Shown here: one piece after another, positions 29,971 to 35,175 of the stretch | Layout of the letters: the number at the start of each line of letters is the position of its first letter | How positions within the stretch are numbered: the stretch's first letter is position 1 | From: Natronosalvus amylolyticus | GTDB lineage: Archaea; Halobacteriota; Halobacteria; Halobacteriales; Natrialbaceae | Direction of reading: 5' to 3' | Length of the DNA stretch: 64,000 nucleotides | NCBI RefSeq assembly: GCF_024298845.1 | Contig: NZ_CP101156.1 | Location: 310,001-374,000 of the forward strand | Made by a program: the position numbers and the translations under genes | The notes under the pieces: generated by a model | Told to the model about the DNA's origin: nothing | Database searches by the model: none | The model's input: the letters and a program-made list of their open reading frames with translations, nothing else

Positions 29971-30018
29971 TTACAAGATCGCCAGTGCTATATGTGGCGC
30001 TGTTGGACACCATATCAG

Positions 30019-30807
30019 ATGCTCCCCATCGACGACACGCCAATCGTTCGCGACGGAAACGCCTTGATTCTCGCGATGGACCACGGTCTCGAGCACGGTC
30101 CGGTCGATTTCGAAGACGTGCCGGAAAAGCTCGACCCGGCTACGGTGTTCGAGACGGCAACTCACGATGCCGTTACCTGTATCGCCGTCCAGAAAGGGAT
30201 CGCCGAAGGATACTACCCGAGTTACGAGGACGACGTAAACCTCCTCGTCAAACTCAACGGCACCTCCAACCTCTGGATGGGTGAACCCGACTCGTCGGTC
30301 AACTGTTCAGTCGAGTACGCAGCCGAAATCGGCGCTGATGCGGTCGGATTTACGCTCTATGGCGGTTCGAACCACGAAGTCGAAATGGCCGAAGAATTCC
30401 GCGAGATTCACGAAGCCGCTCGCGAGTACGACCTCCCGGTCGTCATGTGGTCGTACCCGCGTGGACAGGGTGTCAAAAACGACACCAAACCGAGTACGAT
30501 CTCGTACGCGTCCCGTCTGGCACTCGAACTCGGGGCTGACATCGCGAAGGTCAAATACCCCGGCAGCCGCGATGCGATGGCACACGCGGTCAAATCCGCC
30601 GGCGACATGAAGGTCGTGATGAGTGGCGGTTCGAAGAAAGACGACCTCGAGTTCCTCTCGAGTGTCGAAGCAGTCATCGACGCGGGTGCAAACGGGCTTG
30701 CAGTCGGTCGAAACGTCTGGCAACGTCAGGACCCGTCTCGAATCCTCGACGCCCTCGAAAAAGTCATTTACGAGGGGGAAACGGCGGATGCCGCCCTCGG
30801 TGAGTGA
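30019..30807 (+). CDS. archaeal class I fructose-bisphosphate aldolase family
   Basis: 262 residues from the ATG at 30019 (an earlier ATG at 29992 reads through the predicted leader). TIM barrel with LAMDHGLEHGP near the N-terminus, the Schiff-base Lys in ADIAKVKYPG, and VVMSGGSK for phosphate binding, as in DhnA-type aldolases. The related enzyme 2-amino-3,7-dideoxyheptulosonate synthase (aromatic biosynthesis) has the same fold, but overlap or near-overlap with a fructose-1,6-bisphosphatase gene favours the aldolase of gluconeogenesis and glycolysis. Confidence 0.9.
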   Translation: MLPIDDTPIVRDGNALILAMDHGLEHGPVDFEDVPEKLDPATVFETATHDAVTCIAVQKGIAEGYYPSYEDDVNLLVKLNGTSNLWMGEPDSSVNCSVEYAAEIGADAVGFTLYGGSNHEVEMAEEFREIHEAAREYDLPVVMWSYPRGQGVKNDTKPSTISYASRLALELGADIAKVKYPGSRDAMAHAVKSAGDMKVVMSGGSKKDDLEFLSSVEAVIDAGANGLAVGRNVWQRQDPSRILDALEKVIYEGETADAALGE

Positions 30808-30809
30808 GT

Positions 30810-31682
30810 ATGGGGGCATCGGCTGCCCGGCGATCGGACGCCATCGAGTCCATCGTAAACGTCATCGCCCGATCTGCCGCTGAAATCAGGCAAGGCCTGG
30901 TCGGTCGTCGCGGTGCCGTTGAAGCCGAAAATCCAAGCGGTGAGGTACAGATGGAAGCGGACGTGTGGGCCGACGGCATCCTCCGGCGGCGACTATCGGC
31001 GATCGATGGCGTCGCCCAGTACGCGAGCGAGGAAGAACCAGACGTGTTCGAGTGCGGCGATATCGAGGAGGGATTCGCCGTCGCGGTCGACCCGCTCGAT
31101 GGTTCGTCGAACCTGCAATCGAACAACACCATGGGAACCATCTTCGGCGTCTACGACCAGCCACTGCCAGCTCCCGGTCGGTCGCTGGTCACCGCAGGAT
31201 TCGTCCTCTACGGTCCAATCATCACCATGGCGGTCGCCACCGAGGAGGGCGTCAGCGAGTACGAACTCTCCGGCGGGGAGCGGACGCTCATCACTGACGA
31301 CCTCACGCTCCCCGGGGACCCCGTCGTCTTCGGGTTCGGCGGCCGCGCCCAGCACTGGCCACCCGCAATCGAATCGTACGTCGAGACGATTAGAACCGAA
31401 CTCAAACTCCGCTACGGCGGGGCGATGATTGGGGACGTCAATCAGGTCCTCAGCTACGGCGGGATTTTTGCCTATCCAACCCTCGAGACCCACGAAAACG
31501 GCAAACTACGACTCCAGTTCGAAGGAAACCCGATCGGGTACGTCCTCGAGCAAGCCGGCGGTCGTTCTTCTGATGGCACCCAGTCGTTGCTCGACGTTGA
31601 AGCGACCGAGCTACACCAGCGAACGCCCGTGTACATCGGGTCGACAGAGTATGTGGACCGACTCGAGGCCACCCTCGAGTAA
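30810..31682 (+). CDS. fructose-1,6-bisphosphatase, class I type
   Basis: 290 residues from the ATG at 30810; a GTG at 30804 overlapping the aldolase stop is an alternative. Metal and substrate motifs: YASEEEPDVF and VDPLDGSSN (about residues 95-103), GTIFGVY, and KLRLQFEGNPIGYVLEQAGG, as in bacterial/eukaryotic class I FBPases rather than the bifunctional archaeal FBPA/P. It removes the 1-phosphate of fructose 1,6-bisphosphate, driving gluconeogenesis. It converges on the next gene with two bases between stops. Confidence 0.92.
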   Translation: MGASAARRSDAIESIVNVIARSAAEIRQGLVGRRGAVEAENPSGEVQMEADVWADGILRRRLSAIDGVAQYASEEEPDVFECGDIEEGFAVAVDPLDGSSNLQSNNTMGTIFGVYDQPLPAPGRSLVTAGFVLYGPIITMAVATEEGVSEYELSGGERTLITDDLTLPGDPVVFGFGGRAQHWPPAIESYVETIRTELKLRYGGAMIGDVNQVLSYGGIFAYPTLETHENGKLRLQFEGNPIGYVLEQAGGRSSDGTQSLLDVEATELHQRTPVYIGSTEYVDRLEATLE

Positions 31683-32021: not shown

Positions 32022-33191
32022 TCAGAAGTGCAGGCCGTGGCGATCGGTGAGGGCGTACGCGCTGATACCCCAGACGTAACTCTGTCCTGGCCACCAGGTA
32101 CGCGCGTTGTTGAAGCCGGCGATAAGGACGCTCCCGTCGTCTGCCTGCTCGTCTCGGTGAAAGCTTACCGAGCCGCTGTCACCATCGGTCATGTCGGTTT
32201 CGGTCCCCCAGCGGAGCTGTCCGCGCCGGCAGGTTCGGCTGGTGAGACAGGAGACGGCATCGATTCCCTGAATCATGCCGCTCGTTTGACCGGTCATCGC
32301 ACCGACCTTTTGTAGCGGTTCACTGCGAGCCACGAGGTCGGCCAGCCCAAACCGGGTGTACTGCCCACGAACCTCGTACGTAGACTTGCCTGCAATGACG
32401 CTACTCGGCTGGTGGAAGCCAGTCGGTTCGATAGTGGCGACGTCGGCTACCTCGTAACTGCCAGCGACACGCCCCAGTTCGCTTCGCTCGCCGTTTTCGA
32501 AGGGTAACGACACAGGACTTCCGAGGGTTTCGTCGGCCGCGTGGAAAGCGTGTTGGGCCGTCGAAAAGTAACGCGTGCGGCTTTCGGCGTCGTACAACGG
32601 TGCGCCAAGGGTTGCAATACTGTGTTCGGATTCACAGACGACGCCGGCCGGAACCGCTGGCTGTCCTGGGTTCCGTACGTAGCGTGGCTCGCCGACAGGC
32701 CGTTCTTCAGAAAAGTCGTCCGGATTGACCGACTCGATGTCGATCAGTATCCCATCGGCGAGTCGCTCGAGCGTCTCTCGAAGTTCGGTTGGATCGACCG
32801 ATACCTCGACGGTGATTCGAGCACCCCCGGAATCGTAGGAACCTGGAACGACGGCACTTCCGAGATAGCCAGTAATCGTCGACCTGGCGAGCATCTCGTT
32901 GAGTTCGAACGCCTTTCTTACCCTCGCATACCAGGGTGCCGGGACGTTCCTCGTCCGCGGCTCGAGCGACCACGGGTCCTCCGGGTCCGATCGGACGACG
33001 GCGGTGACGACCGGGACCTCACCATTGTCAGCATCGAACACGTCGTCTACGCCCAGCCACCGAGCGAGACCGAGCGTGTATCCCGCGCCGACGAGCGTTC
33101 GCAGGACTTCGCGGCGGTCCATCCCGTATTCGAGGCGCTCGCGGACGGACGCCAGTCGCTGGTCGGTCGGCCTATCGGGTGAAGACGACAT
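32022..33191 (-). CDS. trypsin-like serine protease-fold protein with Tat-like signal
   Basis: 389 residues. Residues 24-45 (MDRREVLRTLVGAGYTLGLA) carry a twin-arginine-like pair and a weak hydrophobic stretch. The C-terminal half has chymotrypsin-fold marks in correct order: His214 in FSTAQHAFH, Asp250 in YEVADVATIE and Ser339 in DGDSGSVSF, plus KVGAMTGQTSG, a segment common before the active Ser in bacterial trypsin-like proteins. All three catalytic residues are therefore present. The N-terminal ~180 residues look like a separate domain, possibly a pro-region. The protease activity is inferred. Confidence 0.7.
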   Translation of the reverse strand: MSSSPDRPTDQRLASVRERLEYGMDRREVLRTLVGAGYTLGLARWLGVDDVFDADNGEVPVVTAVVRSDPEDPWSLEPRTRNVPAPWYARVRKAFELNEMLARSTITGYLGSAVVPGSYDSGGARITVEVSVDPTELRETLERLADGILIDIESVNPDDFSEERPVGEPRYVRNPGQPAVPAGVVCESEHSIATLGAPLYDAESRTRYFSTAQHAFHAADETLGSPVSLPFENGERSELGRVAGSYEVADVATIEPTGFHQPSSVIAGKSTYEVRGQYTRFGLADLVARSEPLQKVGAMTGQTSGMIQGIDAVSCLTSRTCRRGQLRWGTETDMTDGDSGSVSFHRDEQADDGSVLIAGFNNARTWWPGQSYVWGISAYALTDRHGLHF

Positions 33192-33417
33192 GAGAATCGG
33201 CGGGTGTCTCGAGTGGGTGCTGGATGCGGTTAGCTAATTCTCCCATACACCGACCGTTTCGGTCGAACGGTTCGATAATGCGTGATTGTGTACTCGAGAC
33301 GGTGACACGAGGAGGACGATCAGGCGTGTGCAGCCGGCTACTAACCCGATTAGTCGAAACCGATGTGTGCCATCACAAAGGGAAAACGGTTTTGTCCCCC
33401 TCCTCGCAGAATTTGCC

Positions 33418-35175
33418 ATGAACGTTCGTATCGGACCGGGTGCGTCCGAAGAAGAAGCGTCAGCCATCGCGACTGCGCTGGCAGAATACGTCGGTAACGA
33501 AGTACAGGTGTACGTCGGCGAGGCCGACGAGCCGACGGCAACCGTATCGCCGCCGGAGACGACCGACGAGGACGATACACCCGTCGAAAAAGGAGGCCTG
33601 GAACGGTCCGGAGCCGCCGAAGAACTGGGCCCAACCGACCGCGAGGAACGGTTGCTCGAGGAGATCGAGGAAATCTACGAGGGTGGACACGAGAAGTACA
33701 AAGCGCAGTTACCCGACGAAGGGAAACTGTTCGTACGCGATCGAATCGACCTCTGGTTCGACGGCGACGACAGTTCGTTCCTGTTTGAGGACGGCCGCTT
33801 CGCTGAGTTCGACGCCGACGACCGGTTGCCCGCCGACGCCCTGATCACGGGCGCGGCAACTTTTGATGGCCGGGACCTGCACTTCATGGCCAACGACTAC
33901 ACCGTCAAGCGCGGGTCGATGGCCGCGAAAGGCGTCGAGAAGTTCCTCCGGATGCAACAGCGTGCACTCAAGACCGGCCAGCCGGTGTTGTACCTGATGG
34001 ATTCCTCTGGGGGACGAATCGACCAGCAAACGGGCTTTTTCGCCAACCGCGAGGGAATCGGCAAGTACTACTACAACCACTCGATGCTCTCGGGCCGCGT
34101 CCCACAGATCTGTGTCCTCTATGGCCCCTGCATCGCCGGCGCAGCTTACACGCCCGTATTCGCGGATTTCACCATCATGGTCGAAGGGATGTCTGCGATG
34201 GCGATTGCCTCTCCGCGGATGGTCCAGATGGTAACCGGCGAAGACATCAGCATGCAAGAACTCGGCGGGGCAACGGTTCACGCTCGAGAATCCGGTTCCG
34301 CCGACCTCGTCGCGAAAGACGAGGAACACGCTCGAGAACTCGTCGCACAACTCATCACGTACTTGCCCGACAACGCGGACGAAACGCCACCGATGACCGA
34401 GACCAAGCCGCCAGCACTCCCGCCAAAGGGTATCGACTCGATCATCCCACAGGAGCCAAACCGCGGCTACGATATGGTCGACCTGATCGACCGGATCGTC
34501 GACGCGAGCTCGTACTTCGAATTACGCCCGGAGTACGGCCAGGAAATCATCACGGCCTACGCTCGAATCGACGGTCGGCCGGTCGGCATCGTCGCCAACC
34601 AGCCAGCCCACCGGGCGGGTGCTATCTTCCCCGACGCCGCAGAGAAGGCCGCGGAATTCATCTGGAAGTCGGACGCGTTCAACATTCCATTACTCTATCT
34701 GTGTGACACGCCGGGATTCATGGCCGGCTCCCAGGTGGAAAAGGACGCCATCCTCGAGAAAGGCAAGAAGATGATCTACGCGACGTCGTCGGCCACGGTG
34801 CCGAAACAGACCGTCGTCGTCCGGAAAGCCTACGGCGCGGGAATTTACGCCATGGGTGGGCCTGCCTACGACCCCGAGAGCGTAATCGGCCTCCCCTCCG
34901 GTGAAATCGCCATCATGGGTCCGGAAGCGGCGATCAACGCCGTCTACGCCCGCAAACTCTCCGAGGTCGACGACCCCGACGAACGTGCCGAGATGGAAGC
35001 CGAACTGCGTGCAGAGTACCGCGAAGACATCGATATTCATCGAATGGCAAGTGAGGTCGTCATCGACGAAATCGTGCCACCGAGTTCGCTTCGTGAGGAA
35101 CTCGCTGCGCGGTTTGCGTTCTACGAAGGGATCGAAAAGTCACTGCCGAGCAAAAAACACGGAACGATTCTGTGA
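33418..35175 (+). CDS. acyl-CoA carboxylase carboxyltransferase (beta) subunit with N-terminal epsilon-like extension
   Basis: 585 residues from the ATG at 33418. Residues from about 75 on are a complete biotin-dependent carboxyltransferase: YTVKRGSMAAKGVEKFLRMQ, LMDSSGGRIDQQTGFF, CIAGAAYTPVFADF in the N-half and FNIPLLYLCDTPGFMAGSQV with KAYGAGIYAMGGPAYDP in the C-half. These use carboxybiotin to carboxylate propionyl- or acetyl-CoA. The first ~40 residues (MNVRIGPGASEEEASAIATA, then LAEYVGNEVQVYV) resemble the small acyl-CoA carboxylase epsilon/PccX subunits, followed by an acidic linker. The biotin carboxylase/BCCP subunit is not in this window. Confidence 0.9.
   Translation: MNVRIGPGASEEEASAIATALAEYVGNEVQVYVGEADEPTATVSPPETTDEDDTPVEKGGLERSGAAEELGPTDREERLLEEIEEIYEGGHEKYKAQLPDEGKLFVRDRIDLWFDGDDSSFLFEDGRFAEFDADDRLPADALITGAATFDGRDLHFMANDYTVKRGSMAAKGVEKFLRMQQRALKTGQPVLYLMDSSGGRIDQQTGFFANREGIGKYYYNHSMLSGRVPQICVLYGPCIAGAAYTPVFADFTIMVEGMSAMAIASPRMVQMVTGEDISMQELGGATVHARESGSADLVAKDEEHARELVAQLITYLPDNADETPPMTETKPPALPPKGIDSIIPQEPNRGYDMVDLIDRIVDASSYFELRPEYGQEIITAYARIDGRPVGIVANQPAHRAGAIFPDAAEKAAEFIWKSDAFNIPLLYLCDTPGFMAGSQVEKDAILEKGKKMIYATSSATVPKQTVVVRKAYGAGIYAMGGPAYDPESVIGLPSGEIAIMGPEAAINAVYARKLSEVDDPDERAEMEAELRAEYREDIDIHRMASEVVIDEIVPPSSLREELAARFAFYEGIEKSLPSKKHGTIL

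Follow-up and report, generated by a model that had tools for sequence, protein, structure and literature searches.

Little is understood of the small helper subunits of acyl-CoA carboxylases, and a carboxyltransferase gene of the haloarchaeon Natronosalvus amylolyticus raises the question whether such a helper can be built into the enzyme itself. The gene lies in a stretch of 64,000 nucleotides (contig NZ_CP101156.1, positions 310,001 to 374,000), which is called the window here. An earlier note had proposed that the front of the protein is an epsilon/PccX-like domain, tethered to a carboxylase beta subunit through an acidic linker. Such a gene is annotated by NCBI as plain 'acyl-CoA carboxylase subunit beta', and our literature search found no paper describing a fused epsilon or PccX domain. 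The available text of PMC3199775 treats haloarchaeal carboxyltransferases solely as possible acquisitions by transfer; that of PMC6491548 deals with other domain fusions.

The reading frame is uninterrupted from the ATG at 33418 to the stop codon at 35173-35175, and residues 1-76 correspond to 33418-33645, just as had been noted. An alternative TTG start upstream at 33286 is possible. Relatives give no support for it, and the start aligned to the window ATG is ATG or GTG in most of 80 relatives. PF01039 matches the protein with 456.4 bits (E 1.5e-136, profile positions 4-493 of 493, above the curated cut-off). Because this match covers residues 100-584 and the best-aligning solved carboxyltransferases in the PDB begin at residues 74-93, an onset of the carboxyltransferase at about residue 75, as suggested before, is upheld. 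Pfam and NCBIfam scans gave no named family for residues 1-39; scattered weak matches (SPOR at 0.031, and others) were rejected. The parts of the gene are as follows.

33418..35175 (+): coding sequence of 585 aa, acyl-CoA carboxylase carboxyltransferase (beta) with N-terminal module; single open frame, PF01039
33418..33534 (+): PccX-like N-terminal module, residues 1-39; from alignment, models and hhalign to PccX
33535..33633 (+): acidic linker of variable length, residues 40-72; from charge, length spread and low pLDDT
33634..35172 (+): carboxyltransferase domain, residues 73-585; from PF01039 and PDB alignments
34828..34869 (+): acyl-CoA pocket motif AYGAGIYAMGGPAY, residues 471-484; from alignment with MCC and PCC/ACC beta subunits

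Conservation of the module was followed in the best 80 of 261 relatives from a genome scan, which were kept as loci and are all haloarchaeal by title. The module stands at the front of the carboxyltransferase in 80/80 of them. For the alignment, 62 of the 80 relatives were combined with the window protein (63 proteins); near-duplicates were omitted, as were L029, L031, L050 and L079, whose aligned start is shifted. M1, A14 and A20 never vary, and conservation is 90% or more at E13, A16, I17, A18 and A22. The window protein reads R4 I5 x x G8 xxx E12 E13 xx A16 I17 xx A20 L21, so that the epsilon-type pattern pointed out earlier is present, with a spacer one residue shorter than was claimed. 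The adjoining linker is indeed acidic: it has a net charge of -7 in the window protein, and in 81 proteins it varies in sequence and in length (16-55 residues), with 24% D+E and 3.6% K+R. Module dN was 0.14-0.35 and dS 0.6-1.2 (12 pairs with the window gene, one saturated), which indicates that purifying selection acts on the module.

AlphaFold2 predicted a beta-alpha-beta fold for the module (strand 2-5, helix 11-25, strand 29-33), with pLDDT of 86-91 over residues 1-40 in the full chain and 87.5 when folded alone; in the linker it fell below 50 at residues 49-70. Structural modelling of the fusion thus gave a confident module, but the carboxyltransferase part of the full-chain model is poor (mean pLDDT 62.8) and the packing of module against enzyme is unreadable from it. 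Foldseek with the 39-residue model returned 895 matches at E <= 10 and none at E <= 0.001, which for so small a fold is uninformative, and the best VIA-align match (Z 4.3) was to a designed mini-protein. Among the matches listed by either program there was no epsilon chain, and PDB sequence searches with module and PccX profiles gave chance-level matches. Taken together, invariant residues beside a variable linker, dN below dS and a confident fold make the module more than chance.

The resemblance of residues 1-40 to actinobacterial epsilon subunits did not hold. PF13822 (ACC epsilon) found no match in the window protein, the 63 modules or 12 PccX proteins, and its five matches over the genome of the window (E 0.5-6.5) lie neither in the fused gene nor in PccX. 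In hhalign the module scored 12.8 against an epsilon profile of six sequences only, a score reached by 16/200 shuffles. PccX scored 17.5 against the same small profile, with 1/200 shuffles as high, but decoys reached up to 21.7. Homology of either to actinobacterial epsilon is therefore not claimed. What they have in common is a short motif seen by eye and the enzyme class, whereas the epsilon subunits (AccE5, AccE, PccE) are encoded by separate genes, mostly just downstream of beta and in one case upstream. According to the available text of PMC7835884, the Thermobifida fusca epsilon binds beta and not alpha, promotes assembly of the A6B6E6 holoenzyme and increases Vmax/Km by as much as about 20-fold. 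In Streptomyces a single alpha set combines with alternative beta/epsilon modules, as far as the available text of PMC13118682 describes it.

The genome of the window has a second, non-fused carboxyltransferase. It is, like the window protein, a PF01039 beta subunit, with 37% identity to it, but it is without the module. Directly behind it lies the gene of a separate 108-residue protein (C1:1308502-1308825), which we take to be PccX, from its position and from work on Haloferax mediterranei. PccX of propionyl-CoA carboxylase, the subject of Hou et al. in 2015, is reportedly required for carboxylase activity in that species. The sole biotin carboxylase-carrier gene of the genome is found further on in the same canonical PCC locus, and no biotin carboxylase lies near the fused gene in the window. 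The search of the genome that the earlier note had advised thus found a complete, separate PccX in the PCC locus with the biotin carboxylase, which the note would have counted against its reading. This PccX belongs to the non-fused carboxyltransferase, however, and therefore its presence leaves the tethered-helper idea standing.

The relation of the module to PccX was then examined by profile comparison, with 12 PccX proteins in the PccX alignment (PccX was recovered from 21/30 loci). In hhalign the module profile scored 36.3 against the PccX profile (Prob 93.4), aligning module 3-28 with PccX 32-57 over 26 columns; 200 column shuffles reached 17.2 at most, and among 89 decoy windows, taken from neighbouring haloarchaeal families, the top score was 16.5. 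A module-profile search of 294 genomes of the phylum placed 42/42 fused genes on top (E <= 1.9e-11), followed by 31 weaker matches (1.1e-5 to 0.01), of which the best 11 are all PccX. In total 21 of the 31 are PccX and 10 are others; 15 were assigned by overlap with the PccX search and 6 by position behind a non-fused carboxyltransferase. Outside the class, 8 non-haloarchaeal genomes gave weak matches, the best of them at E 0.0016, which were taken as chance. When 21 genomes were searched with the module profile, PccX was matched in 12/17 PccX-bearing genomes and was the top non-fused match in 10; neither search matched the PccX encoded in the genome of the window. Conversely, the PccX profile retrieved the 17 PccX genes of the 21 genomes first and then 29 weaker matches. 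Among the weaker ones are 11 N-termini of fused proteins, and the top two are of this kind (G031, 0.0015; G445, 0.004). The PccX profile matches fused proteins mainly at PccX positions 27-61.

These reciprocal searches and the hhalign score make homology of the module to the N-terminal half of PccX well supported. Both have the strand and helix segment, both are acidic there, and both belong to the same enzyme class. In contrast, PccX is a separate protein of about 100 residues encoded behind a non-fused carboxyltransferase, and its C-terminal half is basic, with WxxxxW...R...W conserved in 12/12 PccX, whereas the module is an in-frame N-terminal fusion to the carboxyltransferase. The basic Trp/Arg half is absent from the fused proteins, and because of this the earlier description of the module as epsilon/PccX-like stands for the N-terminal half of PccX and not for a complete PccX or epsilon. 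The result suggests that the helper role is partly built into the carboxylase subunit. No Pfam or NCBIfam model covers PccX. In one PccX (L002:3042-3368) the N-terminal 66 residues carry a charge of -16 and the C-terminal 42 residues +7.

In a tree of the carboxyltransferase domain (62 rows), made by a quick search and with long branches flagged, the fused enzymes group in a single clade (34/34 rows, SH-aLRT 99). Canonical haloarchaeal PccB, which is accompanied by the separate PccX, stands apart from it, among archaeal and actinobacterial PCC-type enzymes. The deepest two fused rows (G443, G445) also have the module (5.0e-11 and 1.3e-4), and it is absent from the 11 carboxyltransferases from outside the haloarchaea and the 6 further haloarchaeal ones that were examined. 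A third, long-branched haloarchaeal clade (L211, L212 and L213, from G028 and G025) is without the module and begins at about window residue 100. Of 53 haloarchaeal genomes, 42 carry the fused gene, a further 7 only the non-fused one, and 4 neither of the two. Every genome that has a non-fused carboxyltransferase also has PccX (48/48), and none of the others does (0/5; co-occurrence counted without kinship correction). Genome G031 (99% complete) has one carboxyltransferase only, which is fused, with one unlinked biotin carboxylase and no PccX. G445 (92% complete) has two fused genes, one of them directly behind its biotin carboxylase; no PccX and no non-fused carboxyltransferase were found in it. 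From this pattern and these two genomes, PccX accompanies the non-fused enzyme, and the fused enzyme can do without it. The two G031 loci (L216, L217) offer a natural test case for a fused enzyme without PccX.

The neighbourhood of the fused gene was compared over the 80 loci. A biotin carboxylase-carrier gene directly precedes it in 26/80, and therefore the fused protein is a true carboxylase beta subunit there; in 54/80 none is nearby. Within 5 kb of the 26 linked loci were found AMP-ligase (22), acyl-CoA dehydrogenase (20), MaoC hydratase (18) and CitE-like lyase (10) genes, and within 5 kb of the other 54, MaoC (38) and CitE-like (18). The neighbour families were named from one representative, L022, and these names agree with those annotated on a Haloarcula plasmid. 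The RipC/CitE-like lyase occurs in 41/42 fused-positive vs 2/11 fused-negative genomes (Fisher p about 1e-7, kinship uncorrected). These data point to a haloarchaeal carboxylase that is widespread and as yet uncharacterised, with a link to a leucine/isovalerate-like operon.

The acyl-CoA pocket motif AYGAGIYAMGGPAY is closer to the MCC motif GAGNYGMCGRAY than to the PCC motif GGAYDVMGSKH. The MCC pattern GAGxYxMxGxAY is matched by GAGIYAMGGPAY in the window protein, as by GAGNYGMCGRAY in the beta subunit of a Sphingobium MCC operon; a second MCC reference (Pseudosulfitobacter) has the looser GAGYLAMLGRPF, and PCC/ACC beta subunits have GGAYxVMxSK. With the mycobacterial MCC operon, which contains accA1, accD1 and citE, the haloarchaeal loci share the grouping of acyl-CoA dehydrogenase, biotin carboxylase-carrier, carboxyltransferase, MaoC and CitE-like genes, besides the MCC-like pocket motif. 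On the other hand, the haloarchaeal sequence lies outside the MCC reference clade: the fused clade is separate from the three MCC/terpenoid reference rows, which are long-branched outgroups in the 62-row tree. In the PDB search PCC-type structures rank above MCC by overall score, with the 12S transcarboxylase at rank 2. The available text of PMC4347857 assigns AccD1-AccA1 of the mycobacterial citE-scoA operon as methylcrotonyl-CoA carboxylase and describes these complexes as working without epsilon, and therefore a helper on an MCC-like enzyme is unexpected. For these reasons a branched-chain, 3-methylcrotonyl-CoA-like substrate is a reasoned guess.

The reading that we favour, to which we give a probability of about 0.55, is that the fused gene encodes the beta subunit of a second acyl-CoA carboxylase of haloarchaea, an MCC-like one, with a tethered, truncated PccX-like accessory module acting in cis. 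The flexible acidic linker would tether the 39-residue beta-alpha-beta mini-domain to the carboxyltransferase. By analogy with the separate PccX/epsilon of the other enzyme, whose task it may take over for the fused one, the module would most likely stabilise the beta hexamer or its docking to the biotin carboxylase-carrier (alpha) subunit in molar salt. The single alpha subunit of the window's own genome would then serve both beta subunits.

Alternatively, the module may share ancestry with the N-terminal half of PccX and yet do another job, as a docking or oligomerisation tag that keeps beta trimers together or binds downstream enzymes such as the MaoC hydratase and the CitE-like lyase, the assembly or activating function of PccX residing in the missing C-terminal half. 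That only the N-terminal half is present in the fusion fits this explanation, as do the conserved neighbourhood (MaoC in 56/80 loci, CitE-like lyase in 28/80) and the co-occurrence of the lyase gene. Genomic linkage need not mean physical binding, however, and in the genome of the window PccX has the shared segment without a MaoC/CitE neighbourhood; we regard a tag as rather unlikely. Where the alpha subunit is concerned, the window protein might be an orphan, a biotin-dependent transcarboxylase or decarboxylase in its own genome with the module as partner-selector, considering that the only biotin carboxylase of the genome stands beside the other carboxyltransferase and that the 12S transcarboxylase ranks so high. 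Close relatives directly behind their own biotin carboxylase, and G031 with no other pair of carboxyltransferase and biotin carboxylase than the fused gene and the unlinked one, make this improbable. It was already unlikely, and receives the least credence here, that the module is a functionless acidic haloarchaeal N-terminal extension whose Ala/Glu-rich helix resembles PccX by composition. The segment is short and acidic, it aligns over 26 columns, and its fold is generic, with no informative structural match; but 0/200 shuffles and 0/89 decoys reach the hhalign score, the reciprocal genome searches agree, and invariant residues adjoin a variable linker in a module with dN well below dS.

The reading of the module as an accessory part acting in cis can be extended, tentatively and at somewhat less than even odds, to two parallel haloarchaeal acyl-CoA carboxylases, which could share one alpha subunit; one of the two would use PccX in trans and the other would have internalised the N-terminal half of the helper in cis. 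The fused enzyme would be a minimal two-component MCC-like carboxylase that needs its built-in assembly module, and PccX would contact beta through its N-terminal half. A natural fusion of half a helper may show which half works alone or contacts the beta subunit; it also supplies a single-chain construct for testing helper function, and it points to one alpha subunit common to two beta subunits.

Other genes around the fused gene recur as well. Class I fructose-bisphosphate aldolase-like and FBPase/inositol-monophosphatase-like genes, named by sequence resemblance, lie at window 29992-31682, and such genes are also found upstream of the fused gene in 28/54 and 29/54, respectively, of the loci without biotin carboxylase. 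The minus strand at window 32022-33191 encodes a conserved protein whose start is twin-arginine-like; it is the divergent neighbour of the fused gene in 20/54 of these loci.
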